Source: an uncultured Anaerolineaceae bacterium | GTDB lineage: Bacteria; Chloroflexota; Anaerolineae; Anaerolineales; Anaerolineaceae | Assembly (NCBI GenBank): GCA_937894825.1 | Contig: CALCQT010000490.1 | Coordinates: 1-15,217 of the forward strand | Direction of reading: 5' to 3' | Length of the DNA: 15,217 nucleotides | Shown: in pieces, positions 993 through 15,217 of the stretch | Layout: every line of letters starts with the position of its first letter | Position numbering within the stretch: the stretch's first letter is position 1 | Program-made: the position numbers and the translations under genes | The notes under the pieces: generated by a model | The model's database searches: none | The model's input: only the letters and a program-made list of their open reading frames with translations | What the model was told of the DNA's origin: nothing

Positions 993-2348
993 TTATGCCG
1001 GTAATTTTAAGACCTGGCCGGCGTAGATAGTCGTTCCGGACAGACCGTTCAGTTTTTGAATTTCGGGCCACCTGGACCCATTTCCAAGCTGTGACTGTGC
1101 GATCTGCCACAGACTGTCACCCTTCTTTACCGTGTAGGTCTTCGGCGCCGGTGTGGACGTACCGGACTTTCCGGAAGGGATTTTAATTTTCTGGCCGACA
1201 TAAATGACGTTCGGGTTTGCGATCCCGTTATATGCGGCCAATGCCTGGTATGTCGTTCCATAAGCGGACGCAATTTTTGAAAGCGTATCGCCGCTTTTTA
1301 CTGTGTAAACAGTTTCAGAAGGCGGCTGTGAATTTTCGCCAGAAGAAGGAACTTTCACGTCCCAGGCCGTCAGGTTGTACTTTTCGATCAGGTTGATCAG
1401 CTTGTTTGTGTATTCCGGATCAGTAGCGTAACCGTCTTCGCGAACATATTGACAGGCCAGTTTATAGTCGGTCAAGCCGCGAAGGTTCTTGTAACGATCA
1501 AGTCGGTTGAACAAGGCTGAATGATCCGCGACAGATTCCGCCCATGAAGGGTATTTCCTGAATGTAGCGTCAACGGTGATATATTTCGACCCGTCCCATT
1601 CCTGCGTCTTGCAGGTGTAGCCGGCGCCGTTATATGCCCCCTTGATTCCGAACAGGTTATTCGCGGCCGTTGCCAGGCCGGACTTCCCCCAGCCAGATTC
1701 AAGGATTGCCTGGGCGATCGTCAGGGAAGCCAGGATTCCGGACGTCTTCATATCAGCCGACGCCATAGGTCCGATCTTATTGATAAAGGTTTCCTGTTCA
1801 GTGTTGCCTTTTGAAATAGGTGAACCGCTGTTCTGATCCGCCTGGTCATATTCGATATAAGGGCATTTCAGCCAGTTTGTCCAGTTACGATCAGACAGCT
1901 TTGTCTGACATACGCCGTCACCAAATTTTGTGTTATTTGTGGATTCAATCACCAGGCCGCCGCCGATATAGACGCCGATATGGCCGTCAAGCCAGACACA
2001 GACGCCGGGGATTTCAGGAATAGTTCCGATCGGTCCTTTTTCTGTTGCCGCCTGGAACATACCGTTCGCGCTCTTGTCGGTGTTGGCACTGTAATTCGGG
2101 GACCCGAAGCCGCCCCAGTAATAGGACTTAATCAGACCGACACAATCCACGCCGTAGAAGTCTCTTCCAATCAGTGAACGGAATTTCTGGACGCGTGCGG
2201 GATTGTACCAGTCCGGATATTGGTTTACTTTTCCGGAAATATATGATTCCGTGACCAGTCGCATAATACCGCCCCACATATAGACGGTCTTTGTTTTAAG
2301 GGCCTTTTTGACATAGTCAACCAGGCCGGAAGCTGTAAATGTTGACAT
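993..2348 (-). CDS. Endolysin: NlpC/P60-like peptidase + glucosaminidase + two LysM
   Basis: A 451-aa peptidoglycan hydrolase with four parts in order. First is an N-terminal NlpC/P60-like cysteine peptidase (about residues 1-165), with candidate nucleophile C69 in [14 protein letters not shown] and candidate H123 in [11 protein letters not shown]. Second is a glucosaminidase-type domain (about 188-330), with E217 in [10 protein letters not shown] and the signature NNLFGIKG. Third and fourth are two LysM cell-wall-binding repeats (about 348-391 and 405-450, with YTVKSGDTL and [10 protein letters not shown]). The enzyme should cut both stem-peptide and glycan bonds at the end of infection. There is no signal peptide, so export would depend on the holin. 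Start: ATG at 2348, seven bases after AAAGGAG; the longer TTG start at 2366 lies upstream of the SD and was rejected. A hairpin separates this gene from the tail genes. The domain assignments are by motif. Confidence 0.9.
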
Positions 2349-2373
2349 ATTAAATGCTCCTTTCAAAAGATAA

Positions 2374-2932: not shown

Positions 2933-4639
2933 TTAGGCGAACCTGATCGTCGCCTGAATAACTTCGATCGTCTGGGTTCCCTTCGTAAGCGTGAAGCGAT
3001 ACGCCAGGCCGTTAGTCGTTTCGACGGTCGTGTTCGCGAACGTGTGGACGTACAGATTGACCTTCGACGTGATGTCTTCCCATACCGGCGAAGGATCGAA
3101 GGGATTGTTCGACACTTCGCAATGAAGGACGCTATCGGAAGGCCTGTCCGAAGGATAGAGTGACACGAAGCATTTTGTGACCAGTTCGTCCGTAGAGAAC
3201 GCGCGGGAAGCGGCGATTCTGGTGACGGTTCGGCTGAACGTGATCACACGCTGGGCCGTTCCTCCGGCGCCGTCGTTGACACTGATCGTCAAGGTATGCG
3301 ATCCGGCCAGAAGTCGAAGCCATACAGAAGACAGGTCAGCCGTGTTCGTTGCGCCGTTTGTTGCGGTATAGGTGCGAAGGGTGATTGTTTCCGCTCCGTT
3401 TGTTACCGCTTCGGTGACGGTCAAGGTCTGGCTGGCCGATTCAGCGTCGGTCACTGTGTAGTCGTATGTCAAAGGCGCCGTCTTCGCGCCTACGTTCTGA
3501 TCTGAACCGCTGATCACCGGGTTCGTGTTGTACGAAATAGGCGTCGGTGTCCCGGTCCTGTATGCCGATTCAGCGCCCAGGGAATCGACCGCCTTCACGC
3601 GGACCTGATAATTCGTTCCGGACGACGGGACGGTGTCTGTGATCGAAGTAGAAGACGTGATTCCGATCTGGACATAGGCCCCGGAATCGACGCGACGTTC
3701 GAAGACATAATTTATCGGATTTCCTTCCGGATCAGTCGATCCGCCTGTGGTAATGGTTATGGATTGACCAGCGCGTGGGGTTCCGTGAGAAATTGAAGAC
3801 GGGGTTGTGGGCGGCTGGTTCCACTGGATAATATAAGCGCCGTCGGTATCCACAGAATCAGATACCAAGATTCCAGAACCCACTTCCAAAGCCGGCCGAA
3901 CGCCATTGCTGCCATCGTACGCGTCGCCGTTGTTGAGCGCGCCGCCCGTGTTGACATACCGCGCGCTGCTCGAATCGCCGGCGTACGGGGTTCTTAACCA
4001 CCAGTACCAGGGGGAAGAAGCGTTCAGGCTGGAATTTGTGTATTCGGAAGCGCTGACAGCTTCGGCCGTCGGGTTCGCCTTTCTGCTGTTGTCATTGCTG
4101 AATAGGTCCCACTTCGTACCTTCTGCGACGCTGTTTTCGTTCGCCAGGCCGACTTCTGTGTTTGAAAGAAGATAGACCTTTCGGGTTATGTCTTCATAAC
4201 CTCCGCCGTCGGTGACTGTATTCTTCGCGACCCTGATCGTACTGTCAAGGATTGCATTCCTGAAACTTTCTTCGAAGAAGGACAGGAAGCCAGGCTGGGC
4301 GTCATATTCGTTATAGTTCGACCAGACGTTCGCATTGTTAGGCGGTGCGTCGTAGGAATGGCGCGCGCTGTACCATGCGCCGGCGCCGGCCGCACTGTTC
4401 AGCCATTGATCAATATTCGATTGGCTGTAACGGTTATTTCCGTATTGCTTGCGGTTGTTGTCCGGGTTGCTGGCTTCAATCGCGTCGAAGCATTTCAGGG
4501 TGATAATTTTTTCGGCTATCAGCTTCGTTCTTCCGGAAGCCTGGTGTCCGACAATGAATCGAATGACGCTATTGTTGTACTTCGTGTTCACGGACTTCAC
4601 GATTGATCCAACGGGTAACGTCGATATTAACTTTGCCAT
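2933..4639 (-). CDS. DGR target protein: variable DUF6273-like domain plus fibronectin/Ig-like C-terminal part
   Basis: This 568-aa protein is diversified by the retroelement and is probably a receptor-binding tail-tip or fibre protein. Residues about 1-260 form a DUF6273-like domain: NNRYSQSNIDQWLNS (about 90-105), KVYLLSNTEVGL, WYWWLRTP (about 211-218) and GVRPAL (246-251). The variable repeat covers residues about 217-251. Compared with the template, the changed residues are Y219, D222, S224, S225, Y228, G232, A234, G238, D239, D242, S244 and A250. By analogy with the C-type-lectin folds of Mtd and TvpA these would line a ligand surface. Residues about 272-365 look like a fibronectin type III domain, about 370-465 like an Ig/cadherin-type domain, and the last 100 are beta-rich and unassigned. 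Having VR in the first half of the protein is unusual. The ATG at 4639 follows GGAGGGTTATC and lies within the end of the RT gene. Confidence 0.85.
   Translation of the reverse strand: MAKLISTLPVGSIVKSVNTKYNNSVIRFIVGHQASGRTKLIAEKIITLKCFDAIEASNPDNNRKQYGNNRYSQSNIDQWLNSAAGAGAWYSARHSYDAPPNNANVWSNYNEYDAQPGFLSFFEESFRNAILDSTIRVAKNTVTDGGGYEDITRKVYLLSNTEVGLANENSVAEGTKWDLFSNDNSRKANPTAEAVSASEYTNSSLNASSPWYWWLRTPYAGDSSSARYVNTGGALNNGDAYDGSNGVRPALEVGSGILVSDSVDTDGAYIIQWNQPPTTPSSISHGTPRAGQSITITTGGSTDPEGNPINYVFERRVDSGAYVQIGITSSTSITDTVPSSGTNYQVRVKAVDSLGAESAYRTGTPTPISYNTNPVISGSDQNVGAKTAPLTYDYTVTDAESASQTLTVTEAVTNGAETITLRTYTATNGATNTADLSSVWLRLLAGSHTLTISVNDGAGGTAQRVITFSRTVTRIAASRAFSTDELVTKCFVSLYPSDRPSDSVLHCEVSNNPFDPSPVWEDITSKVNLYVHTFANTTVETTNGLAYRFTLTKGTQTIEVIQATIRFA
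3845..3866 (-). promoter_or_regulatory. Hairpin/cruciform downstream of VR
   Basis: On the - strand GGTATC (3866-3861) and GATACC (3850-3845) form a perfect 6-bp inverted repeat with a 10-nt loop, starting 20 bp after the end of VR. In the Bordetella phage DGR, a short inverted repeat just 3' of VR promotes retrohoming. This one is longer in loop, shorter in stem and further away, and it is inside the coding sequence, so its role is inferred. Confidence 0.45.
3887..3991 (-). repeat. DGR variable repeat (VR)
   Basis: This 105-bp segment aligns gap-free to the template repeat at 5864-5968 (offset 1977). There are 13 differences, at 3891, 3909, 3916, 3925, 3927, 3928, 3940, 3945, 3958, 3966, 3969, 3976 and 3985. 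On the coding (-) strand every one is an A in TR: ten are G in VR, two T and one C. No other base type differs. The 3' end on the - strand (GGCGTTCGGCCGG then CTTTGG) is GC-rich and nearly invariant, matching the expected initiation of mutagenic homology region. Confidence 0.97.
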
Positions 4640-5699
4640 GATAACCCTCCAATTCTTTAGAAAATAGGCAGTAGAACAATTCGTCCGTCTGCCTTATAAG
4701 GTGGTGACTATTCCCGTGTTCAGCATGGCCTGTCCAGCTTGCGTATGAAGCCAGGATCGTTTCAAAGTCGATCCGGCCTTCGTCAAGCAATCCGCGGAAT
4801 TTTTTCAGCTTCCGGCGGATTCGGTTCTTGCTGTCACGGCGAATTTTCTGAACGACCTTTCCACTGTCCGTCATGAAAGTCCTGAATCCCAGGAAGTCGA
4901 TTCCCTGTTTCAGTGGGAAGATCGCTGTCTTCTGGTTCAGTTCCAGGCCCAGGGCTTCGACATACCGGCGTATTTCGTCCAGGCAATAACGAAGGTGGTC
5001 CTTGTCGTTGTGGATCAGATAGAAGTCGTCCATGTACCGGCCGTAATATTTGATTCCCAAGCGTTCCTTGATAAAATGATCCATTCCGGAAAGATAGAGG
5101 ACCGCGAACCATTGGCTGGTATGATTGCCGATCGGGATTCCTTTTCCTTCGGTGGAATCAATTATCATGTCAAGAAGCCACAGAACGTCCGGATCGTGAA
5201 TGACCCGGCGAAGCTGTGACTTCAAAACGCCATGATCTATACTGTAAAAATACTTTTTAACGTCACATTTCAGGACCCAGCCGTCTGCCCCGTATTGCCG
5301 GTAATATTTCCGCATGAACATTTTCAGGCGGTCAAGTCCGAAATGTGTTCCTTTCCCTTTCTGGCTTGCGTAGTTGTCAAAAATGAATGTCTTTTGAAGG
5401 TGCGGTTCCAGGACGTTATCGCAAAGGCTGTGCTGGACGATCTTGTCGCGGAACGAATTATACATGATCAATCTTTCCTTCGGTTCGTACACCATGAAAC
5501 AGTTGTACGGGCTAAGTCGGTATTTCTTCGACGTCAGCATATAGTGAAGGAATGTAAGGTTTTCAAGTGCGTTGATCTCATATTTCACGACCGCATATTT
5601 CCAGCGTTTACCCTTCCGGGCTTCCATGTATGCCGCATAAAGATTATTCAGGTCTGCCAATTTCGCGAAGTCAGAAACCGGGATCTGTTCTTCGCTCAA
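4569..5699 (-). CDS. DGR reverse transcriptase
   Basis: A 376-aa reverse transcriptase of the diversity-generating retroelement class. It copies the TR RNA into cDNA with errors at adenines, and the cDNA then replaces VR. Visible motifs in order are the NYASQKGKGTH block (109-119), palm motif A with D146 in LKCDVKKYFYSID, the DGR hallmark IGxxxSQ as IGNHTSQW (190-197), the catalytic YMDD (222-225, in YYGRYMDDFYLI) and DFLGFR (268-273). A basic thumb-like region (RRDSKNRIRRKLKK) follows. All catalytic aspartates are present and the length is normal for the family, so it looks intact. The start is TTG at 5699 after AAGGAGGA, with 7-nt spacing. The last 23 codons overlap the target gene (4569-4639) in another frame. 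There is no maturase or endonuclease domain, which argues against a group II intron RT. Confidence 0.95.
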   Translation of the reverse strand: MSEEQIPVSDFAKLADLNNLYAAYMEARKGKRWKYAVVKYEINALENLTFLHYMLTSKKYRLSPYNCFMVYEPKERLIMYNSFRDKIVQHSLCDNVLEPHLQKTFIFDNYASQKGKGTHFGLDRLKMFMRKYYRQYGADGWVLKCDVKKYFYSIDHGVLKSQLRRVIHDPDVLWLLDMIIDSTEGKGIPIGNHTSQWFAVLYLSGMDHFIKERLGIKYYGRYMDDFYLIHNDKDHLRYCLDEIRRYVEALGLELNQKTAIFPLKQGIDFLGFRTFMTDSGKVVQKIRRDSKNRIRRKLKKFRGLLDEGRIDFETILASYASWTGHAEHGNSHHLIRQTDELFYCLFSKELEGYHGKVNIDVTRWINREVREHEVQQ

Positions 5700-5709
5700 T
5701 ATAAAATCC
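5698..5709. repeat. 12-bp direct repeat, RT-proximal copy
   Basis: AATATAAAATCC on the + strand (GGATTTTATATT on the gene strand) lies between the RT Shine-Dalgarno and its TTG start. An exact copy is at 5983-5994, so the pair brackets the TR and spacer RNA segment. Confidence 0.8.
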
Positions 5710-5863
5710 TCCTTGCCGCTTATAGTCCGGGCGTCGTAGCCGAAGCCCTCGCGTCAGCAATCTTGTGTTTACCCTGGCCTTTCCGGCGGCGGGAAGGATA
5801 TGTCCTCCTTTGTTGGGGTTCTCTGCTTTCGGGTTCTTCGCCGTACTCGGTCACGATTTCCAC
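5700..5863 (-). ncRNA. DGR spacer RNA region between TR and RT
   Basis: These 164 bases, transcribed downstream of TR and ending at the RT start, hold no convincing gene. In the Bordetella phage DGR a spacer of about 140 nt in the same position is part of the TR RNA; it folds, binds RT-Avd and primes cDNA synthesis. The similar length and place here suggest the same job. Possible local stems can be seen, for example CCTTCC against GGAAAGG with one bulge (about 5772-5791), and a C-UUCG-G tetraloop inside GGGCTTCGGCT (about 5739-5749). I did not fold it. Confidence 0.55.
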
Positions 5864-5968
5864 CAAATCCGGCCGAACGCCATTGTTGCCATTGTACGCG
5901 TTGTTGTTGTTGAGCGTGCCGTCCGTGTTGACATTCCGCGCGTTGTTCGAATTGCCGGCGTTCGGGGT
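5864..5968 (-). repeat. DGR template repeat (TR)
   Basis: This is the non-coding template for the variable repeat. On the - strand it contains 32 adenines and, read in the VR frame, 13 Asn codons (nine AAC, four AAT), so mutated adenines change residues without easily making stops. Thirteen of the adenines differ in VR; all 73 other bases are identical. It lies 27 bp after the avd stop and 164 bp before the RT start. An ATG at 5977 makes an 85-aa reading frame across TR, but it lacks a convincing SD and is probably incidental. Confidence 0.97.
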
Positions 5969-5982
5969 ACAGGACATACCCT

Positions 5983-5994
5983 AATATAAAATCC
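5983..5994. repeat. 12-bp direct repeat, avd-proximal copy
   Basis: AATATAAAATCC on the + strand, an exact copy of 5698-5709. It starts directly after the avd stop codon on the gene strand. Confidence 0.8.
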
Positions 5995-5995
5995 G

Positions 5996-6451
5996 TCAGG
6001 CCTGGGATTCGTCCTGGCTGGCCGGCGGCTTCTGGCCGTCTTCCAGTTCTGACTTGTACCAGGCGGCGGACATATATTTGACGTCAAGAACCTTCTTTGT
6101 CCAGTATTCAAAGGTTCCGGTGTCTATATAGCCGCGTTTTTTCGACAGTTCCACATAAAAAAGCAATAGCTTACAGTCTGTCAGCGCGGCCCGTTGTAGT
6201 TCTAACCTTTTGGCCTTGTCTGAATCGTTCCGGATCGGGAATATTTCGTTCGCTTCCAGTAGGTTTTCATAGATTGAAAGGACGCGTTCCTGGATTCGGT
6301 TGACGATCGTGAACCTGACTTTCTTCGGGAAGTGCTTCGCGTTGTCCGTCAGATTCAGCGTGTAGTCGATCAGATCAGCGACCACTGGAAGAACATGAAG
6401 GGGACTGTCGTTCCCATTCTTCTTCCGCTGATAATTCCTTCTTGTTGCCAT
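5996..6451 (-). CDS. avd: Avd-like DGR accessory protein
   Basis: A 151-aa helical protein matching the accessory variability determinant / S23-like four-helix bundle family. The core runs from about residue 18 to 132 and includes ADLIDYTLNLTDNAKHFPKK and then VRFTIVNRIQERVLSIYENLLEAN; FPKK.RF (41-47) and the LL.AN ending of the second helix are typical. Later helices read LELQRAALTDCKLLLFYVE and FEYWTKKVLDVKYMSAAWYK. In characterised DGRs Avd forms a basic pentamer that binds RT and the TR RNA and is required for mutagenic cDNA synthesis. The basic N-terminus (ATRRNYQRKKNG) is a possible RNA contact. The ATG at 6451 has only a distant GGGGG as SD, and the gene overlaps the end of the upstream small gene by 77 bp. 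The C-terminal 20 residues are hydrophilic and probably disordered. Confidence 0.85.
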   Translation of the reverse strand: MATRRNYQRKKNGNDSPLHVLPVVADLIDYTLNLTDNAKHFPKKVRFTIVNRIQERVLSIYENLLEANEIFPIRNDSDKAKRLELQRAALTDCKLLLFYVELSKKRGYIDTGTFEYWTKKVLDVKYMSAAWYKSELEDGQKPPASQDESQA

Positions 6452-6671
6452 ATAAACACATTCGCCCCCTTATTGCGTCGATCGTTTCACGCCGGCCGGT
6501 ATAGTCGAACCCATAATCACGAAGGATCAAAGTCTGTTCTTCACCTTCGTATGTCAAGCCGCGAATAATGACGCTGTCGCCGCCACAGTGGCCACAGACG
6601 GGCCGTAATTCGACGAATAGACATGATATAAGGCAAGACGTTTCGGACGGCTTACAGGCGAATTTCGTCAC
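6375..6671 (-). CDS. Small CxxC protein of unknown function, upstream of avd
   Basis: A 98-aa reading frame starting at a GTG that overlaps the stop of the fibre gene (CTGTGA). It contains a single zinc-ribbon-like pair, CGHCGG (about residues 26-31), plus other scattered cysteines (about residues 6, 13, 17, 72 and 94). The middle has the look of a folded domain (DSVIIRGLTYEGEEQTLILR, then DYGFDYTGRRETIDAIRGRM). Codon choice resembles the neighbours. Its last 25 codons overlap the start of avd in another frame. I do not recognise the family. The position between fibre and avd suggests it is either part of the DGR cassette or a small fibre-associated protein. A longer reading to 6740 lies inside the fibre gene and was rejected. 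The weak SD and the overlaps lower confidence. Confidence 0.55.
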   Translation of the reverse strand: MTKFACKPSETSCLISCLFVELRPVCGHCGGDSVIIRGLTYEGEEQTLILRDYGFDYTGRRETIDAIRGRMCLYGNKKELSAEEEWERQSPSCSSSGR

Positions 6672-7426
6672 AGATAAAGCCTGTTGTTCGACGTGTCCAG
6701 GATTCCTTCCGGAAGACCTGTTCCGTCGTAGCCTTTCCATTGCGATAATTGGCCGGACGCGAATGTGTGGGTCACAGTGGTTCCTGTGAACCCGGTGTCA
6801 AGCTGTTCCTTGATCGCCTGAATGTCGTAATCTTGACGGCGCTGAACTTCTTCGACGGACTGGCCAGAAGATTCAATAATAGTTCCGGCCGCCTGTGTAT
6901 GGACCAGCGGCGCCGCATAGGCTGTCATTTGTGCCGAAGTCACGAAGGAAAAAGCCCCGACCTGTACGGAAACGGCACTGTTTTCCTGGTTCGTGACGAA
7001 GATCGCGACGTCGTGAATGTGGACCGTGTCGGCCATTTCTTCGATTTCACCCAGGAAGGAAGACGGCGGAAGTATGTTGTCGCTGTCTTCGCCGTCAAGC
7101 CATGAATAAGCGAAAAGGAATTCGACATTGTCGGCGTCCAGGGCGAAGATTCCGATTTCCCTGATCCAGACAGAAGATTCAAGCCCGGCGTTCGTAACCT
7201 GGACCGGAATTTTCATGATAGAAGGATCGCCGGCGATAAATTCTTTCGCCTGAACCTGTGTATTAACGGAAACGGGTGAAACAAGGGCGGACAATGTGTT
7301 CGGGCTTGTTTCTGGTATCCCGTCGCCGCTTGCCGCTCTCACGACTTGAAGCTGTGATCCGGACGCGATCATCTGGGTCAGGACTTCGCTTCCCTTGTCT
7401 GTGATTGTTGATCTAAAACGTGCCAT
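6668..7426 (-). CDS. Tail-collar-type fibre protein (DUF3751-like N-terminal domain)
   Basis: A 252-aa protein. The first 170 or so residues match the N-terminal domain of phage tail-collar fibre proteins (MARFRSTITDKGSEVLTQMI, later PVQVTNAGLESSVWIREIGI and VEFLFAYSWL), which attaches a fibre to the baseplate. Residues about 175-215 are helical (VEEVQRRQDYDIQAIKEQL), like the neck of a trimeric fibre. The protein then stops about 35 residues later (QWKGYDGTGLPEGILDTSNN and RLYL), where a receptor-binding region would be expected. It is short for a fibre, so adhesion may be supplied by the DGR target downstream. SD AGGAGG overlaps the stop of the preceding gene. Start: ATG at 7426. Confidence 0.8.
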   Translation of the reverse strand: MARFRSTITDKGSEVLTQMIASGSQLQVVRAASGDGIPETSPNTLSALVSPVSVNTQVQAKEFIAGDPSIMKIPVQVTNAGLESSVWIREIGIFALDADNVEFLFAYSWLDGEDSDNILPPSSFLGEIEEMADTVHIHDVAIFVTNQENSAVSVQVGAFSFVTSAQMTAYAAPLVHTQAAGTIIESSGQSVEEVQRRQDYDIQAIKEQLDTGFTGTTVTHTFASGQLSQWKGYDGTGLPEGILDTSNNRLYL

Positions 7427-7429
7427 TGC

Positions 7430-7960
7430 TTAACCTCCTTGTGGAATATGTTCGTGCTTATTTATGCTCACAGTCGCCGAACACAAGACGAAAGCCGGCC
7501 GAAGGATCGTCTGTGGAATTTGCGTCTGCATTTTAAGGACCATGTTTGCCGGGATCATCTTACCCAGCACGGCCACCAGGGCGTCGCGCTGATCATATCC
7601 GGAAAGCACGATCCGAATAAACAGTTCATACGCGTCGTTGTCCAGGTTGACGGTGAAGTCCTGGCTGACCGTGGACAGATACTTCAAAAGGTTTTTATAG
7701 GTGTAAGGAAGCTGGTCAAGGTATTTCAGAAGGATTCTTTGACGCCTTGTTTCCAGGGTATCACCAGAAGCCACAGAAAGGCCCAGAATCGCTTCCCAGC
7801 GTTTACACCCATAATCGGACAGGCTAACCAGGAAAAAGTCTTCTGGCGCCTTCCTGACGTCCTGGGCGGCCCTTTCAAATTCAGGTTGAAGCCCGTTCGC
7901 GATCTGCTGGAATTCGATCAATTCCTGGACATAGCGCGGCCAATAATTAAGAAGCTCCAT
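7430..7960 (-). CDS. DUF2313 (XkdU/YmfQ-like) baseplate protein
   Basis: A 176-aa protein starting MELLNYWPRYVQELIEFQQI, with the typical pattern of the YmfQ/DUF2313 family: a helical N-terminus, then DFFLVSLSDYGCKRWEAILG, then TRRQRILLKYL and LPYTYKNLLKYL, and a beta-rich second half (YELFIRIVLSGYDQ). In Mu-like and PBSX-like contractile tails this protein sits at the baseplate wedge between the baseplate J protein and the fibre. Gene order here (after baseplate J, before fibre) agrees. It overlaps the upstream gene by 14 bp. SD is a GGTGGTG-type sequence within the end of that gene. Confidence 0.85.
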   Translation of the reverse strand: MELLNYWPRYVQELIEFQQIANGLQPEFERAAQDVRKAPEDFFLVSLSDYGCKRWEAILGLSVASGDTLETRRQRILLKYLDQLPYTYKNLLKYLSTVSQDFTVNLDNDAYELFIRIVLSGYDQRDALVAVLGKMIPANMVLKMQTQIPQTILRPAFVLCSATVSINKHEHIPQGG

Positions 7961-9029
7961 TCGTCACCACCCCCAGGACAGGAATCGAATCAGCGTCAAG
8001 TGAAATATTCGCCGTTCCGCCGTTGATTGTGGTTCCCGTAATGTCGATCACGCCTTCGACGTTCAGAATCTTCGTTTCAATCTGGCTGACGCGGACGATC
8101 AGGCTTTCACTGTCGGCCCACACTTTAGCCAGGTCTTCGAAATAGTTCTGGATTGCCGCCTGGACTTCCGTCTGTACGCTTTCCCAGGTAACACCGGAAG
8201 CAAAGGTCAGCGTAAAGGATACGTCTATCGTTACGCCTGTAACGCCAGAAACGGTCACGACGTGGCCGATCGGTGCAATTCCCAGACCTTCGCCCTGGTG
8301 TCCCACTGGATCAATGTCAGCCTGTACCGATTCTACCAGTTCGGAGGAAGGGACGCCCCATTCACTGTCAAGAAGAATAATCTTCACGGTTCCGCCGCCA
8401 TTCCAGACAGGAATGACCTTCACGGCTCCGACGCCTTGTAATAGTTCGACCTTCTTCTTGTAGTCGGCAATATTGCCGCCGAATGCCTGGCTTTTCAGCG
8501 TTGCGAAATACCTTTCACGAAGGGAGTCGTCTGATTCTTCGTCTTCGCCAGGAATAAGTACGTCGGCAAGTGTAGCGGACGCCAGACCGTCAACAAAGTC
8601 GATCGGAAATAGTGTTCCAAAGTACACATTTCCGACAGTTCCGGCTGTTTCTGCCGTCAGTTTAAACTGGCCAGCCGCGATCCTCTCGGTGACTGTGTAA
8701 TTGATGTCGCCACCAGAAAAGCGGGTTCCGATTGGAACTTCAAATCCGCCACCCTGGGCGTTTTCGAAATATCCTTTTCGGACGGCAAAGGTTGCCGGTT
8801 GTCTGAACACACCCCTTTCCTGGGCTTTTTTCGTCAGGTCAACGTCTGCCGCTGTATCCGGGAAGGCGCGGTCCATGATAGTTCCAAGTTCTATATACAT
8901 GATCGCCAGTTCGGCCGCCGCCGGTGCGATCGCGTCATAAATGACTGACCCTTCGCGCTTGTCGACCGAATCGGACACACGCGACAGGCAGCGGTCCATG
9001 ATGTTTTCAAATGTCATGTTTTCATACAT
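7947..9029 (-). CDS. Baseplate J-like (gp47/XkdT) protein
   Basis: A 360-aa protein with the baseplate J layout: MYENMTFENIMDRCLSRVSD and DKREGSVIYDAIAPAAAELA at the N-terminus, then LTKKAQERGVFRQPAT, then FEVPIGTRFSGGDINYTVTE, and EEDDSLRERYF-type sequence (seen as DEESDDSLRERYF) in the middle. It forms the wedge ring that surrounds the hub and triggers sheath contraction. Its start overlaps the end of the upstream gp25-like gene by 8 bp, with SD CGGAGG, so expression is coupled. Length and order match PBSX XkdT. Confidence 0.92.
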   Translation of the reverse strand: MYENMTFENIMDRCLSRVSDSVDKREGSVIYDAIAPAAAELAIMYIELGTIMDRAFPDTAADVDLTKKAQERGVFRQPATFAVRKGYFENAQGGGFEVPIGTRFSGGDINYTVTERIAAGQFKLTAETAGTVGNVYFGTLFPIDFVDGLASATLADVLIPGEDEESDDSLRERYFATLKSQAFGGNIADYKKKVELLQGVGAVKVIPVWNGGGTVKIILLDSEWGVPSSELVESVQADIDPVGHQGEGLGIAPIGHVVTVSGVTGVTIDVSFTLTFASGVTWESVQTEVQAAIQNYFEDLAKVWADSESLIVRVSQIETKILNVEGVIDITGTTINGGTANISLDADSIPVLGVVTNGAS

Positions 9030-9450
9030 TCGCGCTTACCTCCGTTTCAATGTTTACTTCACCGAATACCGTCGACGCCGTGAATTCGACCGAAAGCGTT
9101 CTTTTGTCAATCTGCTTGTAGCTGACGTCATAAACGTCCGTGATCCGGCGGTCTTCAAGTAAGGCTTCACGAAGAATCCGCTTGATTTCACTTGCTATCA
9201 CTTGATAGCTTTTTCCGACAATGGCGCGCATTTCAATTCCATAGTTCCAGGAATAGATCAGGTATAGAAAACGCTCCGATTGAAGAATTTTCATGATAGC
9301 CTGTTTCATGGCGTCGATTTCGTCCACATATCCGCCGACGCGCTTTGCCGAAAAGTCTATCTTATACGTTCTTGATGTCTGGTCTTTCTGTTCGACCACT
9401 TCGACGTTCTGGCCAATAGTGACCGACGCCGCATTCGGTATAAATGCCAT
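9022..9450 (-). CDS. gp25/gpW-like DUF2634 (XkdS) baseplate wedge protein
   Basis: A 142-aa protein of the DUF2634/XkdS type. Seen are a YKIDF and KRVGGYVDEIDAMKQAIMKI segment, then SERFLYLIYSWNYGIEM, then VIASEIKRILREALLEDRRI and a final beta-hairpin (LSVEFTASTVFGEVNI). This is the gp25-like fold that joins the baseplate wedge to the first sheath ring. It sits between the DUF2577 protein and the baseplate J protein, as in PBSX. The ATG at 9450 comes shortly after the stop of the upstream gene, with GGAAGGGTGTGA as SD region. Confidence 0.9.
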   Translation of the reverse strand: MAFIPNAASVTIGQNVEVVEQKDQTSRTYKIDFSAKRVGGYVDEIDAMKQAIMKILQSERFLYLIYSWNYGIEMRAIVGKSYQVIASEIKRILREALLEDRRITDVYDVSYKQIDKRTLSVEFTASTVFGEVNIETEVSANV

Positions 9451-9454
9451 AAAA

Positions 9455-9853
9455 TCACACCCTTCCCAGGACCAGGAATTCCTGACCCCCTTGATTTCTT
9501 AAAAGAACGACCTTGTCACCGACAGCAAGTCCGAAATAGATTTCCTGTGCGGTTTCAAGGCCGGTATTTTCAGTATGGAACGGCTGTACGCTGTGGGTAT
9601 GTGCGTCGGCCGTTTCTGTATTGTGTTGTGGGACCGTGTGATCGTGTGGCGGAATTGTGTGTTTGTGTGTCAGGTACGATCCGGACTTGAATTCTTTCAT
9701 CAGGACGACCTGTTTTTCACCAATATCGAACCGGTTATCGACGCGGATCACAAGCGGACTGACCGATTTCACGGTTCCAAACAAAAAGGCCGCCGGCGCT
9801 CCGGCCTGGCCGGTTTGCTCTGCGACCTTCTTCATAGTGTCTAAAATTCCCAT
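9455..9853 (-). CDS. DUF2577 (XkdR-like) baseplate protein with His-rich tip segment
   Basis: A 132-aa protein matching the DUF2577/XkdR position and pattern: MGILDTMKKVAEQ, then GTVKSVSPLVIRVDNRF, an inserted loop, and finally VGDKVVLLRNQGGQEFLVLG, an OB-fold-like strand pattern. Between residues 63 and 93 there are eight histidines (63, 65, 70, 72, 77, 85, 87, 93), arranged as HKH, HDH and HTH. HxH triplets in the spike tips of other contractile tails bind iron, so this segment may form a metal-stabilised membrane-piercing tip; that role is inference. Start: ATG at 9853, just after the stop of the hub gene. Confidence 0.82.
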   Translation of the reverse strand: MGILDTMKKVAEQTGQAGAPAAFLFGTVKSVSPLVIRVDNRFDIGEKQVVLMKEFKSGSYLTHKHTIPPHDHTVPQHNTETADAHTHSVQPFHTENTGLETAQEIYFGLAVGDKVVLLRNQGGQEFLVLGRV

Positions 9854-9854
9854 A

Positions 9855-10805
9855 TCACACCACCTTTAACTTCAATGACATAGTTTGCTTTATTAGATCA
9901 TGGCTGGCTTCTTCGACAATGAAGAACTGCTTGACGCCGATTTCCGCAAGGCCTATAAATAAAGCGCGGCCGGCTCGGACTGACAGATCGGAAAGGGCGT
10001 TGACTTCGAACGACCGCTTCGGGCGGTTATAAAGTTCGATCATCATTTCGCCGCGTTCTTTGATCTGGGCTTCGTTCAGGCTGTCGTCCAGCTTTTCGAA
10101 GTTTTGAAGGATACCCCAGAACTTCATTGTGTTGGAATCCTGGAATATATAAACGTCACGTTTGCCGGTGTCCTTATTATCGCGGACCAGCTTGATCTTG
10201 TTATAGGTTTCGGTGTCAATGTCTGACGCGTAGGTGTAGCCAGTGGCCAGACTTGAATCACCGACGAAAAGGTCAAGCTTCGAATCTTCGACGTTTGAAA
10301 TTCGAAGACTTCCGAAGTCGTCCCATAGATAAAACATTTTTCCGGTATTGATCAGCGTCTTGTCCATGGCTTTCAGAATGATGTCAAAAAGGGTCTGATT
10401 GTCTTCAACCATTGAAGGAATGACATATCCTGTATTAGCAAGCGTCCCGGTCTTGATCTGGAAGTCTGCCGCTATCTGTGCGGCGATCTGATCCGCCCGT
10501 TTTCCTTCGAAGACGTAAGTGCCTTTATTCTTCAAGTACCTGGTTTGATCGTACGCTGTGACCGAAATTTCGCCTTTTTCAGACCTGGACAGCTTGAATA
10601 CATAGCCATAGAAGACGCCTGTATTTCCGTCCTTTATGGCCACGATCCCGCCGTGGTCCCAGGCGACGCTATCGTCAACAATGACAGTCAGTTCGACGGA
10701 AGCGGGGGAACCGGTCCGCTTCGTGGTCCATTTCGCCGCCGAAACAAGGGAAGTCACGTCGAACGCTTCGCCTGTCTTTATGTTTTGGTAAAGTACGCTA
10801 ATCAT
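9855..10805 (-). CDS. Baseplate hub protein (XkdQ / gpD-like)
   Basis: A 316-aa protein of the XkdQ/late control D type. Seen are MISVLYQNIKTGEAFDVTSL, then a beta-rich N-terminal part with VELTVIVDD, VFYGYVFKLSRSEKG and ISVTAYDQTRYLKNKGTYVF, followed by helices with RADQIAAQIAADF and further strands. It ends in FFIVEEASHDLIKQTMSL and KLKVV. It forms the central hub on which the spike sits and to which the tail tube attaches. The ATGA overlap with the upstream LysM gene (10802-10805) shows coupling. Confidence 0.9.
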   Translation of the reverse strand: MISVLYQNIKTGEAFDVTSLVSAAKWTTKRTGSPASVELTVIVDDSVAWDHGGIVAIKDGNTGVFYGYVFKLSRSEKGEISVTAYDQTRYLKNKGTYVFEGKRADQIAAQIAADFQIKTGTLANTGYVIPSMVEDNQTLFDIILKAMDKTLINTGKMFYLWDDFGSLRISNVEDSKLDLFVGDSSLATGYTYASDIDTETYNKIKLVRDNKDTGKRDVYIFQDSNTMKFWGILQNFEKLDDSLNEAQIKERGEMMIELYNRPKRSFEVNALSDLSVRAGRALFIGLAEIGVKQFFIVEEASHDLIKQTMSLKLKVV

Positions 10806-11473
10806 GGCAACGTGAAGACCTGTCCTGGATAGATAGTATATTTCGGGTTTCCGGTTCCCTTGTTGCGTGCGTCTATCGTCGCCTTATTAGCGTTATATAT
10901 ATCAGGATAACGGCTTCCGTCGTTATAATACTTTTTTGCGATCGCCCACAGGCAGTCACCTTTGACGACTGTGTGGGTTTTGACAGGCGCTGGACTTCCG
11001 GAACGCGTCGGTTCTTTTGCCTGTGCCGGCTTTGAAGCTACCGTCGGAAGGACGATTCGTTTCGGTGAATAATCCTTCCATTCGATCAGCTTGATCTGAT
11101 AGTAAATGTCGCCGACCTCACCGGCGCGTTCTTCATAGTCGAAGGAATCAACGCCGAAGCGAATGTTAATGTCCAGGTCTGTTCCAGTGATCAGAAAGCG
11201 GATCGGGGACGCGTTATCGCGTGCGTTCTCGATCGCTCTTACGATTTCGATCGGCTCCCTGATTTTGCCTGTGACATAAGGGGCCGAATGAACCGGAAGG
11301 AATGATTCCCAGGACACTTCACGAAGGCCCCTCTTGCGAAGGATATTGATTTCTCCAAGTCCGATCACGGTTGTTTTGTCGTTCTTGCCGGCGGCCTGGA
11401 CCGAAATTTTTTCAGGAAGGACCGGGATTGTGATTTCCCGCCCTTCGATAATCAATGTCATTTTATAAGCCAT
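10802..11473 (-). CDS. LysM-containing baseplate protein (XkdP / gp53-like)
   Basis: A 223-aa protein with two parts. Residues about 1-150 are the XkdP-like structural part (EGREITIPVLPEKISVQ, then GEINILRKRGLREVSWESFL, later IRFLITGTDLDINIRFGVDS). The C-terminal LysM-like domain covers about 168-223 (HTVVKGDCLWAIAKKYYNDG through YTIYPGQVFTLP). In contractile phages this protein links the hub to the baseplate wedges; the LysM-type domain is a structural adaptor in gp53-like proteins and need not bind cell wall. The ATG at 11473 uses GGGGGTG within a short tandem duplication as SD. Confidence 0.9.
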   Translation of the reverse strand: MAYKMTLIIEGREITIPVLPEKISVQAAGKNDKTTVIGLGEINILRKRGLREVSWESFLPVHSAPYVTGKIREPIEIVRAIENARDNASPIRFLITGTDLDINIRFGVDSFDYEERAGEVGDIYYQIKLIEWKDYSPKRIVLPTVASKPAQAKEPTRSGSPAPVKTHTVVKGDCLWAIAKKYYNDGSRYPDIYNANKATIDARNKGTGNPKYTIYPGQVFTLP

Positions 11474-11502
11474 TACGAATACACCCCCTACGAATACACC
11501 CC
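11474..11502. repeat. 15-bp tandem duplication at the tape measure / LysM gene junction
   Basis: TACGAATACACCCCC (11474-11488) is followed at once by TACGAATACACCCC and then T, so 14 of 15 bases repeat. On the gene strand the upstream copy encodes the last residues and TAG stop of the tape measure gene. The downstream copy supplies the GGGGGTG Shine-Dalgarno of the next gene. Confidence 0.9.
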
Positions 11503-13404
11503 TTCCGCCGCCATTGCGAATTCGTCTTCCAGCTTCGTTTCGATCTTTCTGACGACTTTGTCAACGTCAACCTTTTCGCTGATCTGGGCATTCATAGCGA
11601 CAGTTGGTGTCAAGGTAACGAAGTTCTGAACGTAGCGCATTTCGGCAACGTCGCGCATTAGTTTCAAGTCTTCATCTGCGATATTGACGTCGTCCTTGAT
11701 TTTCCCGACTTCGCCGACCTTTCCGACCTTTCCGACCTTCGCAATATCGCCGTTTGTGGCAAATTTGCCGGTCAAGTCCGCATTTTCCTGGGCCTTCTTT
11801 TGTGCGGCTTCGGCTTTAGCTGTTGCGATCTCGGCCTGGCGCTGTGCTGTGGCCACGTTCGCGGCTGTTTTCATTTGATTCAGCTTCGCGTCGCGGTCTG
11901 CGATCTGGCTTTCGATCTGGGACCGATAGGCTTCAAAGCCCTGGTTCCTGGTTTGTTTTGCCGCTTCGTTTTCCATCTGGGCCGTTGTCCCGAATGTTAC
12001 CTTGTCAATCAGTTCAATATTGACGCCAGGTATTTTATTCAGAACAGAAATGAAGCCGTTTATGATACTGATCGCTCCGTTAACCATTTTTTGAAGGATT
12101 GTCAGAACGCCGGCCTTCATGGCACCCATGAGATTCTGAATGTTCACGCCAGCGGTATAGAAGGCCAGTTGTAGCTTGTTCAGCATATCCATGACCCAGT
12201 AAACGCCGATCATAAATCCGATTTTTACCCAGTCCCAGGCGGTCAGGATCGCGTTACAAGTGATCAGCCACGCCACTCTGATTCCTCCGACAGCCTGGAC
12301 CCATTTATAGGTCATTGCCACGACGACGCCGATCGCCAGGGCGATCCAGAAAAGCGGGTTCGACAGAAGGGTCGTGAAGAACGCCTGGGCGGCTCCGTTT
12401 GCGATCCACGTCGCCACCGTCTGAATACCCAGGGCGACGGCATAGCCAAGCGCGGCCGCCGCCAGGCCCCAGAAGATAGGTGCGATCATGGACCAGTTGT
12501 CATATATCCACTGGGCGCCCTGGCCTATAACCTGGATCACCGGCTGGAAGGTTTGAAGAAGCATATTGCCTAATATTGTTCCGACCTGTGAAAAGGTCAT
12601 AGGCATGGCTTGAAACTTTGCGTTGATTTTGTCCGCTGACGATAGCATGGCGTTTTTAACGATCGTCGAAGTGATCTGACCTTCGGCGGCCATTTCACGG
12701 ATTTTCCCGATCGGGACACCCAGATAGTCGGCGATCGTCTGAATAATTGTCGGCGCCTGTTCGAATACGCTGTTCAGTTCTTCGCCGCGCAGGACGCCGG
12801 AAGACATAGCTTGCGTAAGCTGTAACATTGCCGCGTCCACACCGGCGGCCGAAGTGCCGGCGATTGTGAACTGTTTGTTGATAAGTTCGGAAAAAGCGAT
12901 CAATTCTTTGTTGGAACTGAACGCGTTCTTCGCCATAATACCCATTTGGGCCACGGCGTCGGCTGTTGACTGGTACGAAGCGCGGGATCTGTTGGCCGAC
13001 TTCATGATCATGTCTTGAAGTTCGGCCGTGGTCTGCAATCCGTCATTCATCAGATCAAGGCGTGCGGTCGTCTGTGTCATGCTGTCGGCCAGGTCTATGA
13101 TCTGTTTTGCACCGAAGGCGGTGACAGCGCTTTTAATAAGATTGCCGACGCCGCCCCAGGCGCTTTTGACCTTGTTCGCTCCATTTCCGGCTTCGTTCTG
13201 ACGCCTGTTGAACTGTTCGACTTGCTGTGTAGCGTTCCCGATCGCGGTCGTGCTTCGGCTGAAAGTATCGCCAGGGTTGACTTGATCGGTCAAGCGATCC
13301 GTGGTTTCCAACGCTCTATTAGTGCGCGAAACGGCGCTTGTGATTCTGTTCAAGGCGCTGGTCATTCTGTCATGTATTGCTAAACTGGTAGATACACCGG
13401 CCAC
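11488..13404 (-). CDS. Tail tape measure protein (XkdO-like)
   Basis: A 638-aa protein that sets tail length and fills the tail tube before DNA ejection. The N-terminus (1-75) is helical and coiled-coil-like. Residues about 90-290 form the conserved tape measure domain (KSAVTAFGAKQIIDLADSMT, then AAMLQLTQAMSSGVLRGEEL and FEQAPTIIQTIADYLGVP). About 307-408 is strongly hydrophobic, with at least three membrane-like segments (IFWGLAAAALGYAVAL and LFWIALAIGVVVAM, among others), and could insert into the host membrane at ejection. About 490-545 is an alanine/lysine coiled coil, and about 555-568 carries KVG repeats. It is about half the size of PBSX XkdO, so the tail should be shorter, near 95 nm at the usual 0.15 nm per residue. 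The start is GTG at 13404, after AAGGAAGG, overlapping the frameshift product's stop region. Confidence 0.9.
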   Translation of the reverse strand: MAGVSTSLAIHDRMTSALNRITSAVSRTNRALETTDRLTDQVNPGDTFSRSTTAIGNATQQVEQFNRRQNEAGNGANKVKSAWGGVGNLIKSAVTAFGAKQIIDLADSMTQTTARLDLMNDGLQTTAELQDMIMKSANRSRASYQSTADAVAQMGIMAKNAFSSNKELIAFSELINKQFTIAGTSAAGVDAAMLQLTQAMSSGVLRGEELNSVFEQAPTIIQTIADYLGVPIGKIREMAAEGQITSTIVKNAMLSSADKINAKFQAMPMTFSQVGTILGNMLLQTFQPVIQVIGQGAQWIYDNWSMIAPIFWGLAAAALGYAVALGIQTVATWIANGAAQAFFTTLLSNPLFWIALAIGVVVAMTYKWVQAVGGIRVAWLITCNAILTAWDWVKIGFMIGVYWVMDMLNKLQLAFYTAGVNIQNLMGAMKAGVLTILQKMVNGAISIINGFISVLNKIPGVNIELIDKVTFGTTAQMENEAAKQTRNQGFEAYRSQIESQIADRDAKLNQMKTAANVATAQRQAEIATAKAEAAQKKAQENADLTGKFATNGDIAKVGKVGKVGEVGKIKDDVNIADEDLKLMRDVAEMRYVQNFVTLTPTVAMNAQISEKVDVDKVVRKIETKLEDEFAMAAEGVYS

Positions 13405-13410
13405 AATGGA

Positions 13411-13620
13411 TCACCTTCCTTTCTTGCCGTGGCGTTTTGCCCTGGCGGCTTCCTTTTTTTCCTTCTCGACTTGAAGGTCAATGGACGCATAAATAAAGGC
13501 GCGTTCACGGATCGGAAGCGCCATGAGCGTGCCAGGCAGTATTTTCAAACGGTGGAGGGCGTAATGAGCGTAGACAGCTTCACCGTCGGCTTCCGCGTCA
13601 TTTCCGCCCCCCGTTATTAG
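13411..13620 (-). CDS. Frameshift extension of the tail assembly chaperone
   Basis: Reading after a -1 slip at A AAA AAC (13620-13626), the -1 frame stays open for 69 codons, from CTA at 13620 to TGA at 13411-13413. It encodes, in part, YAHYALHRLKILPGTLMALP, then IRERAFIYASIDLQVEKEKK and a basic end. A L..LP..L..LP..ERAF..ASI......K....A.A pattern is what is expected for the T region of the G/GT tail chaperone pair, which recruits the tube and tape measure. The full fusion would be 204 aa. There is no convincing separate start, so frameshifting is the likely way it is made. The coding evidence is strong; the efficiency is unknown. Confidence 0.85.
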   Translation of the reverse strand, partial: LITGGGNDAEADGEAVYAHYALHRLKILPGTLMALPIRERAFIYASIDLQVEKEKKEAARAKRHGKKGR

Positions 13621-14024
13621 TTTTTTGCTTCTTCCCTCAATTCATTGATGTCGGTCGAAAAGCCGTTGACCTCCTGAATTGCAAGAAGAAGATCGGTGAA
13701 TTGGCCAGGATTCAGAATCTTGTCGATAAGGTCTTCCGCCCCCATGACGTCATATTTCGCTTGAAGTTCGGCGTCCTTGAAGTTCGGGTCCACACAGCAA
13801 GCGATCACAAGGCGGTTATTATAAAGGTCCGCGTCGGTTTCAGTGTTCCTCTGGTGTGTCTTCTTGTCGAATAACACCCTTTGACACGATTTCCTGATTG
13901 CCTTGTTTTCGCCCTCCGTGATCGACCTGATAACGAAGGGAAACGGAAACGGCTTGATTTCCACCGTAGTTTCGACAGTGGCTTCAACTTCCTGTTCCAG
14001 TAAAAAGTCTGTAAGTTTGCCCAT
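13617..14024 (-). CDS. Tail assembly chaperone (XkdN-like), zero-frame product
   Basis: A 135-aa protein matching the XkdN type: MGKLTDFLLEQEVEATVETT, then VEIKPFPFPFVIRSITEGEN and later DPNFKDAELQAKYDVMGAED and DLLLAIQEVNGFSTDINELR. It coats the tape measure and guides tube assembly, and is absent from the finished tail. It lies between the tail tube and tape measure genes, as in PBSX. It ends at TAA TAA straight after the slippery A AAA AAC; a fraction of ribosomes should shift into the -1 frame. SD AAAGGAGGA precedes the ATG at 14024. Confidence 0.9.
   Translation of the reverse strand: MGKLTDFLLEQEVEATVETTVEIKPFPFPFVIRSITEGENKAIRKSCQRVLFDKKTHQRNTETDADLYNNRLVIACCVDPNFKDAELQAKYDVMGAEDLIDKILNPGQFTDLLLAIQEVNGFSTDINELREEAKN
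13620..13638 (-). promoter_or_regulatory. Programmed -1 frameshift signal with SD-like stimulator
   Basis: The heptamer A AAA AAC (13626-13620) is in the zero frame as GCA AAA AAC, followed at once by TAA TAA. Six bases upstream is AGGGA (13637-13633) within GAGGGAAG, like the internal Shine-Dalgarno that stimulates the E. coli dnaX -1 shift. I see no strong hairpin within 10 bases downstream. Confidence 0.85.
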
Positions 14025-14041
14025 TGTTTGGTCCTCCTTTT

Positions 14042-14500
14042 TTAGAATTTATTGAAAGGCGTCAGAATGTCGAAGTCTTCGAAAGTGAAGTCTGTGTCTT
14101 CTTCAAGGGGATCGTCAGAATCGCCGTCCAGCTTTGCAAGGACAGTCGAATCAATATTACAGCCCATGAGAAGGATTGACTGTTTCCCGGCGGAAGACTG
14201 CGGGTCTTCATTCTCGATCACCATATCGAAGTACAGATCGACGCCTGTTTTCTTATAGTCCGCGATCATGGAACGGAAAAGCGGGGTCAGATAGTAAAGG
14301 GTCATGGACCCAGTACCATTCAGGCCGGTCACTTTGTGTCCGGTCATGCGCTTTCCGATCGACTTGACTTCGGACTTGTTTTTATCGACATTCGCTTCGA
14401 CCGATTTTGCGAAGAACAATTCTTCATTGTTCCCGTTGATCTTCGCGTATGCTCTGCCTTCCTTGCCGGAAATGGTATCCGGCGCGTTCAAGGTTTTCAT
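14042..14500 (-). CDS. Tail tube protein (XkdM-like)
   Basis: A 152-aa protein of the PBSX XkdM core tail protein type. Seen are PDTISGKEGRAYAKINGNNE and LFFAKSVEANVDKNKSEVKS, then GKRMTGHKVTGLNGTGSMTL and YYLTPLFRSMIADYKKTG, and an acidic C-terminal region. It polymerises into the inner tube of the contractile tail. It lies directly after the sheath gene and before the chaperone, the standard order. SD AGGAGTG lies shortly before the ATG at 14500. Confidence 0.92.
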   Translation of the reverse strand: MKTLNAPDTISGKEGRAYAKINGNNEELFFAKSVEANVDKNKSEVKSIGKRMTGHKVTGLNGTGSMTLYYLTPLFRSMIADYKKTGVDLYFDMVIENEDPQSSAGKQSILLMGCNIDSTVLAKLDGDSDDPLEEDTDFTFEDFDILTPFNKF

Positions 14501-14518
14501 TTCGCTTCACTCCTTCCA

Positions 14519-15217
14519 TTAGTTGACCGTAACGGTCATATACAGCTTTTCCATGCTGTCGTTCGGCTGTAACGCGCAATTCACGGCGACGTCACGCTTC
14601 CCGACGCCTTGCTGAATGATGATGTCGGCGCTTTCGAAATTGCTGATCGCGTCGATCGCCTGGTACTGCGTAGCAAGGGAAACAAGGTCAGCCTTGAAAA
14701 GCTGGCGGCCTGTGTCGCTGTTTGTGACAAGCCCGATATAACTTTCGCCGAAGATTCTTGCGACGTCATTCGCCCAGCCGTCCATAACACGGACAACACG
14801 GTTCGAAGTCCAGTCTTCGGAAACGCCTTCGCCGAAGGTAACAAGGCTGTTGATGTCAGTCAAGACACGGGCCTTTCCGTTATCAGCATAGAATACGAAT
14901 TCGCCGGCTCTGATAGCCGCTTCGAACTGGCTTTTCGTGTATTTGATGTCGACGTCAACGGCTCCGTCATACGCGGTATTGGTTAGGGATTCGTTGACTT
15001 CTGCGCCAGCGGAAGCCCCGGCCACCCATGCGACGGCCTTGTCGCCTGTGATTGTGGTTCCGTCAGAAAGAACGACGCCGTTCTTGACATTGATTAGGCC
15101 CATGTCGTCGCCGTCATACTGATAGAGGACACCGACGATTTTCTCTCCGTTATCGTAGCGAAGACGCTTCACGAATGCGGCAAAAAGGGCCTTGATCGTT
15201 TCATCTGTGCCAGGATA
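14519..15217 (-). CDS. Contractile tail sheath protein (XkdK-like), 5'-truncated by window
   Basis: The last 232 residues of a frame that stays open to the right edge; the first visible residues are YPGTDETIKALFAAFVKRLR. The GTG at 15172 is an internal codon, not a start. Recognisable sheath features are ATWVAGA-type AVAWVAGASAGAEVNESLT, then TKSQFEAAIRAGEFVFY, then NSLVTFGEGVSEDWTSNRVV and RIFGESYIGLVTNSDTGRQL. This is the C-terminal part of the sheath, which packs against the tube and makes intersubunit strands. It contracts to drive the tube through the host wall. About half the usual length is visible; the rest is outside the window. Confidence 0.9.
   Translation of the reverse strand, partial: YPGTDETIKALFAAFVKRLRYDNGEKIVGVLYQYDGDDMGLINVKNGVVLSDGTTITGDKAVAWVAGASAGAEVNESLTNTAYDGAVDVDIKYTKSQFEAAIRAGEFVFYADNGKARVLTDINSLVTFGEGVSEDWTSNRVVRVMDGWANDVARIFGESYIGLVTNSDTGRQLFKADLVSLATQYQAIDAISNFESADIIIQQGVGKRDVAVNCALQPNDSMEKLYMTVTVN

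Follow-up and report, generated by a model that had tools for sequence, protein, structure and literature searches.

The stretch of DNA analysed here (the window) comprises 15,217 nt of contig CALCQT010000490.1 from the genome assembly of an uncultured Anaerolineaceae bacterium (GCA_937894825.1), and carries a phage diversity-generating retroelement (DGR). Its template repeat (TR) is paired with a variable repeat (VR1) inside a target gene, and a reverse transcriptase (RT) gene and an avd-like gene accompany the repeats. The order on the minus strand is avd-like gene, TR, spacer, RT and target 1 (avd-TR-RT-target), with the following parts:

5996..6451, minus strand: Avd-like accessory gene, 151 aa (PHROG 3206 'Avd protein of DGR', 7.2e-34; Pfam bAvd 7.1e-5, below the cut-off)
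5864..5968, minus strand: TR, 105 bp with 32 adenines, beginning 27 bp past the avd stop
5864..5881, minus strand: 3' end of the TR with a mark of the initiation of mutagenic homing (IMH*) type, A in the TR at position 101 (window 5868), C in the VRs of the close clade
5700..5863, minus strand: spacer between TR and RT, 164 nt, conserved and with a shared predicted RNA fold
4569..5699, minus strand: RT, 376 aa, TTG start (RVT_1 6.5e-19; PHROG 1423 3.1e-141)
4569..4639, minus strand: overlap of the RT 3' end with the target 1 5' end, 71 nt in different frames
2933..4639, minus strand: target 1, tentaclin-type, 568 aa, with DUF6273 (aa 38-253) followed by Ig/FN3-like domains
3887..3991, minus strand: VR1, codons 217-251 of target 1, mid-gene

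DGR-type RTs are recognised by the motifs YxDD and [IVL]GxxxSQ. The open reading frame (ORF) of the RT contains YMDD and IGNHTSQ, and the YMDD and IGNxxSQ columns are unchanged across 12 aligned RTs. Taking the furthest-upstream ATG as the target start, RT and target overlap by 65-209 nt in 10/10 loci (nine relatives plus L004, a second record of the same phage). An original prediction, made from the letters of the window alone, had described a complete DGR at 3887..6451. The TR/VR pair, RT, Avd-like gene and target are all supported by matches, so that the window can hardly hold anything other than a complete phage DGR of a known kind; the element lies where it was predicted, but its target gene continues to 2933, outside the proposed span. 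The cassette adds a member to the phage DGRs of tentaclin type, the name tentaclin having been introduced with target 1 of phages nd12 and nd4 (main text of PMC10743442).

TR (5864-5968) and VR1 (3887-3991) align without gaps over 105 bp, with similarity ending on either side. Recomputation gave the same result as first reported: all 13 differences fall on the 32 adenines of the TR coding (minus) strand, for which the chance probability is p = 2.5e-8 (hypergeometric). At these 13 sites VR1 has 10 G, 2 T and 1 C. Metagenome assembly can mix repeats, and TR and VR might on that account be unrelated repeats or an assembly artefact. No specific support for this was found, and both the p value and the recurrence of the pattern in the genome of an isolate, Geosporobacter subterraneus DSM 17957 (L059, 12/12 TR/VR differences at A), speak against an artefact, to which we give practically no credence.

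The earlier observation of no non-adenine drift likewise holds, although one of these 13 differences is fixed in the clade and so probably does not reflect mutagenesis. At position 101 the TR has A in 14/14 and VR1 has C in 14/14 close cassettes, the window included, and C is also present in seven close-clade copies of a second variable repeat (VR2, below). Because the same A/C difference recurs in all 14, we take position 101 to be a fixed IMH*/IMH mark, which would give homing its direction, and it was left out of the mutagenesis count for this reason. Without it, 12/12 differences in the window are on 31 adenines (p = 8.2e-8). Across 13 close cassettes, again excluding position 101, adenines account for 173/174 TR/VR1 differences (91 to G, 57 to T and 25 to C), a count that omits L007 (5/13 at A), whose TR seems to have lost adenines itself. 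The total over all pairs (81 pairs, 1025/1156 at A) was not used because it contains swapped or unrelated pairs in L065 and L066 and among the first pairs of L285 and L288.

The same TR has a second, remote VR. It lies beyond the window, out of reach of the original prediction, ~11 kb past VR1 on a near-identical contig:

L123:13204-13308 (and L320:10572-10676): VR2, in a small DUF6273 gene of a replication gene cluster

The product of this gene, target 2, has a DUF6273 domain, is only 235 aa long and belongs to PHROG 9958 (function not annotated); full-length phrog_9958 matches were obtained for G101 (4.5e-62), nd4 (7e-81) and G114 (1.2e-54). On the near-identical contig, 18/18 differences between TR and VR2 are at A over 104 bp, and 18/19 over 105 bp. 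A target 2 query matched all 21 genomes or records searched, and 15 of the 21 have a separate second target gene; in G000, G105, G110, G111, G116 and G120 only target 1, the TR or (in G120) a contig-edge fragment was matched, the contigs of G110 and G111 being 16 and 14 kb long. VR2 was found in all 13 of the records submitted for this comparison, and in a separate one in two further (G112 and G113). Differences from the TR are at adenines in 161/166 cases (13 copies, 12 records), leaving out G103 (the same contig as L007; 9/21 at A), where the TR seems to have lost adenines. The pattern extends to nd12 (13/13 at A), nd4 (9/10), G113 (11/13) and G112 (12/14). The isolate Geosporobacter subterraneus DSM 17957 has all three repeats, TR, VR1 and VR2. 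It is thus very nearly certain that one TR serves two targets. Since the contig that carries target 2 differs from the window at 5 of 13,699 bp, the window's own phage copy would be expected to have it too.

The original prediction had read the clean adenine pattern as a sign of recent or continuing retrohoming, to be checked by looking for relatives with the same TR and different VRs. L010 and L011 are such relatives: they share the TR, have 0 mismatches in the 1878 bp between TR and VR1, and differ in VR1 at 14 sites, 14/14 of them at TR adenines. L009 has 6 mismatches of 1878 relative to these two contigs and 23 and 21 VR1 differences, all at adenines. In addition, the ends of the L005 contig overlap by 230 bp within the target 2 gene and carry two VR2 alleles (L321:110-213 and L322:13378-13481), with 14/14 differences at TR adenines and 0 mismatches in 125 flanking bases; we take these alleles to belong to one population, the assembly having presumably broken at the hypervariable repeat. 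Such pairs argue strongly that VR diversification is recent or continuing in close relatives, and a comparison of sequences of this kind points to mutagenic retrohoming as the likely process. For the window's phage itself the claim finds no direct sign, as L004, the only other record found of this phage, has the same TR and the same VR1. Identity of VR1 in the only two records found, despite 5 mismatches in 13,699 bp, is what one would expect if the cassette were complete but resting, with VR1 a record of past events only. Against such a resting state stand the absence of any off-adenine TR/VR difference, the close relatives whose VRs differ although the intervals between TR and VR1 are identical, and the conserved spacer fold, and we consider it quite improbable. 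The fold has 44 pairs (the alignment also takes in the last 15 TR bases) and 97.3% of cells paired; its covariation score and paired cells are higher than in all 500 shuffles, in which relatedness is uncontrolled. As to provenance, L010 and L011 are contigs of different metagenomes, judging by name, and L004 is possibly from the same sample as the window or a linked one.

The template itself is altered in L007. Its TR (7744-7848) has 18 differences from the clade consensus TR, of which 14 are at adenines, all changed to other bases. Position 101 is among the 18 adenines that it keeps, whereas the TRs of 13 other close cassettes have 28-33. Between L007 and L005 the TR-VR1 interval is 3.5% different (65/1860). 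The L007 template looks as if mutated copies of itself, or a VR as far as the mark, had been written over it, and a mixed assembly could also account for the loss. The TRs of L059 and L006 have 3 differences, all at adenines. Wear of this kind is not the rule, because other TR pairs differ chiefly off adenines (window and L005, for example: 6 differences, 1 at A).

Target 1 matches DUF6273 (Pfam, 2.6e-40) over aa 38-253, with the VR codons 217-251 inside the match, and matches PHROG 10993, which PHROGs labels 'Hoc-like head decoration', across its full length (1.3e-225). It is 43.5% identical to the nd12 and 40.7% identical to the nd4 target 1, over 98% of the length. The region in which the consensus of seven residues of the last tentaclin Ig domain would be expected aligns with both, with a similar NN...SP.WED stretch. 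Searched against the PDB, target 1 matched 567 chains at E <= 0.001, the top ones being mostly FN3/Ig arrays and adhesins with low whole-chain TM-scores; in Pfam, Big_9 reached 0.0066, under the cut-off. A C-lectin fold has been described for the tentaclin variable domain in the main text of PMC10743442. In our structure model most of the VR part has a predicted local confidence (pLDDT) below 50, and the model does not confirm that fold. Target 1 is most likely a tentaclin-type adhesin displayed on the virion. The variable receptor-binding protein on the tail that was originally predicted is plausible; tail and head are both possible locations, and the PHROGs label points to the head.

In G101 the target 2 gene is preceded by an exonuclease, an Erf-type annealing protein, a replication initiator, a DnaC-like loader and a RusA-like resolvase, and a methyltransferase lies two genes past it. 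Its overlap with the RusA-like gene is 23 nt in both G101 and G104, assuming a MAVK/MSVK start, and RusA-like and DnaC-like neighbours are common to five records (G101, G103, G104, G106 and G109), the neighbours in G102, G103 and G106 being assigned by similarity to those of G101 only. Target 2 is followed in G104 by a single-stranded DNA-binding protein (SSB) and a regulator or sigma-like gene. In both nd4 and G119 a methyltransferase is among its neighbours, together with a DNA polymerase exonuclease subunit in nd4 and with a replication initiator and a Holliday junction resolvase in G119; a replication initiator is also found beside target 2 in G108, G113, G115 and G118. In FP_Toutatis the neighbours are methyltransferases, a replication initiator and antiterminator Q, and 13/14 VR differences are at A relative to the TR of another record; in FP_Brigit a target 2-type gene, with a candidate VR only, is found with regulators, exonuclease, RecT, DnaC and RusA. 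None of 32 neighbours in 11 records matched a head or tail PHROG; these neighbours were hand-picked, partly because they looked recognisable, and those of G114 and G117 are not among the ones annotated. Because of this replication-gene company, target 2 would be expected to be expressed early.

Some forms of target 2 are fused to enzyme-like domains. The nd12 protein has DUF3310 at its N-terminus (Pfam 2.5e-16; PHROG nucleotide kinase 3.8e-31), as already noted for a DUF3310-like motif in the main text of PMC10743442. In G114 the C-terminal domain matches a PHROG NTP pyrophosphohydrolase (2.6e-16), and P0171, from Faecalispora jeddahensis, matches the same PHROG (9.8e-18). All four fused proteins inspected contain EExxE...ExxD, which we take to be the pattern of MazG-type enzymes, compared with 10/433 ORF stretches of at least 150 aa in 12 loci (fused one included). 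A fused protein (L329:7094-8044, minus strand) has 215 homologues at E <= 0.001, and 119 of the 120 listed cover at least 79%; the fused form thus seems to be common. Separate pyrophosphatase-type genes adjoin target 2 in G108 and are near it in G109. A membrane-like stretch was not found in any of 11 second-target-type proteins, whose highest 19-residue hydropathy is 1.41 (2.65 for the window ORF at 452-682), and no anchoring domain was found among the Pfam and PHROG matches of target 2. Two further features of these proteins may be mentioned. In several close relatives (L320:10146-10850) target 2 has an acidic tail ending in F (EDDDF, DDNDF), which presumably resembles the SSB tip. Some of the 90% clusters of target 2 (P0104, P0118, P0108 and P0091) hold 919 to 4130 sequences, perhaps VR variants.

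These observations could be explained as follows. The avd-TR-spacer-RT transcript would be reverse-transcribed by RT-Avd with errors at TR adenines, and the complementary DNA would replace the VR of a target, be it VR1 next to the cassette or VR2 at a distance. Target 1, with its DUF6273 domain containing the VR and its subsequent Ig-like domains, would be shown on the particle as a tentaclin-type adhesin. Target 2 would be made from the DNA-replication gene cluster, stay inside the infected cell and act as a hypervariable binder whose partner is a component of the host or of a rival phage, for instance to counter host defences or to exclude superinfecting phages. We consider the explanation as a whole, a phage DGR with one TR, a virion adhesin and an intracellular binder, to be likely, and target 2 is probably a non-virion protein. 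Its role in counter-defence or exclusion is a tentative suggestion, with the odds somewhat against it. Slightly short of an even chance is given to the fuller statement that one template hypermutates both a particle adhesin and an early cytoplasmic binder, the latter free-standing or joined to nucleotide-metabolism domains and directed at host defences or rival phages.

The main competing possibility is that both targets are virion receptor-binding proteins, target 2 being an Mtd-like tropism determinant encoded among early genes. A receptor-binding role like that of Mtd was proposed for target 2 of nd4 and nd12 in the main text of PMC10743442; the DUF6273 variable domain is common to both targets, and VR2 is diversified in the same manner as VR1. 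On the other hand, target 2 has replication-type neighbours in several divergent phages, is fused to DUF3310 and a pyrophosphohydrolase-like domain, lacks a detected anchoring domain, and on the near-identical contig has its VR2 ~11 kb from VR1. Neighbourhood and fusions are evidence against receptor binding without settling the matter, and we regard two virion receptor-binding proteins as unlikely, with a chance still large enough to be reckoned with. Several results weigh against an intracellular target 2 or other parts of our explanation. The G104 terminase (late-type) and portal genes start ~2.5 kb downstream of target 2 on the same strand, the two neighbours tested in G107 are of moron type and not replication genes, and no TR was found in the tested interval of FP_Brigit. 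Neighbours and fusions locate where the gene product is made, not its destination, and hydropathy cannot separate the two sites, as target 1 is also without a membrane-like stretch (1.06). For the fused protein, Pfam gave no pyrophosphohydrolase match at E 0.01, and the fused fragment has no good PDB match (best E 0.41). Target 2 is absent from the matches in G000, the window's assembly, where the phage terminase is also unmatched. In the spacer fold, both partners have changed in 5 pairs, a number that 149/500 shuffles also reach. Finally, a BPP-1-type hairpin (GC-rich, 7-10 bp, with a 4-nt GRNA loop) was not found after the VR in 14 cassettes in a search for exact stems with loops of 3-12 nt within 70 nt from VR position 101; the longest stem was 6 bp, and three cassettes had none.

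Phage DGRs are discussed chiefly as a means of changing host recognition. If our explanation of target 2 is true, phages randomise an intracellular protein as well, and DGR targeting by phages extends from host recognition to conflict within the cell. Remote targets may moreover be under-counted, because the method of a large metagenome survey would, according to its main text, miss them (PMC8144416).

Outside the cassette, the window holds the following features:

6668..15172, minus strand: contractile-tail (PBSX/xkd-like) gene run upstream of the cassette (Pfam and PHROG matches)
993..2366, minus strand: endolysin-like glucosaminidase and LysM protein downstream (Pfam Glucosaminidase 6.1e-38, LysM 4e-37)
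5720..5977, minus strand: ORF through the TR, 85 aa, resembling the VR part of the target (DUF6273 8e-4, below the cut-off)

The tail run comprises sheath, tube, XkdN-like chaperone, tape measure, LysM, YQBQ-like, DUF2577, sheath initiator, baseplate J, Gp48 and tail-fibre-like genes. Its xkd-type Pfam families stand in a row (sheath, tube, XkdN-like, YQBQ-like, sheath initiator, baseplate J, Gp48), with the gene order of PBSX itself serving for comparison; the originally predicted PBSX-like contractile-tail operon is borne out by these matches. The ORF through the TR is probably not a gene because stops interrupt it in 8/10 loci (L005, L007-L012 and L014; none in L004 and L006). L123:6847-7686 (minus strand) encodes a recombinase zinc ribbon preceded in the same protein by a repressor-like HTH_3 N-terminus, and an ORF near it, at 36-428 of the window (plus strand), resembles a serine-recombinase C-terminus by eye and has no Pfam match. 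The G000 bin, with neither a terminase match nor a second target, would hold part of the phage only, and it is uncertain to which host the window belongs.

Among known systems, BPP-1 has its target gene located before avd. In the window, by contrast, the target comes after the RT and overlaps it, the VR is mid-gene, and the 7-10 bp hairpin with a 4-nt loop was not found. The two share the avd-TR-RT order, A-specific differences, the IMH*/IMH difference at the 3' end and a structured spacer, going by the main texts of PMC3240598 and PMC12875486. DGR-diversified sensors of conflict systems in multicellular bacteria are similar in concept, having a hypervariable C-lectin-type binder that is in some cases predicted to be cytoplasmic; as described in the main text of PMC10907252, those systems are cellular and associated with STAND/NACHT or ternary systems, whereas here a phage gene lies among replication genes. 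The Faecalibacterium prophages Lelie and CP11 have, as here, one DGR with two VRs and large and small DUF6273 targets (main text of PMC11792537), and are more distant, with RT identities of only 46-47% for L063 and L064, two related Faecalibacterium genomes. In Lelie, the gene that matches target 2 of nd4 belongs to a gene run arranged like that of FP_Toutatis, in which the Lelie genes are unannotated, and has 17 differences from the G113 TR, 15 of them at A. In the parts of the literature available (main text, without supplements, figures and most subscription papers), the location of the small target among replication genes and its pyrophosphohydrolase fusion are not reported. Most similar are nd12 and nd4, which are different phages and have, like the window phage, a DUF6273 and Ig target whose VR lies in the 5' portion of the gene, together with a small DUF6273 protein as second target, which has a VR to itself; the main text of PMC10743442 names both genes as cassette targets and proposes receptor binding, and to this the present analysis adds that target 2 lies among replication-type genes and has enzyme-like fusions.

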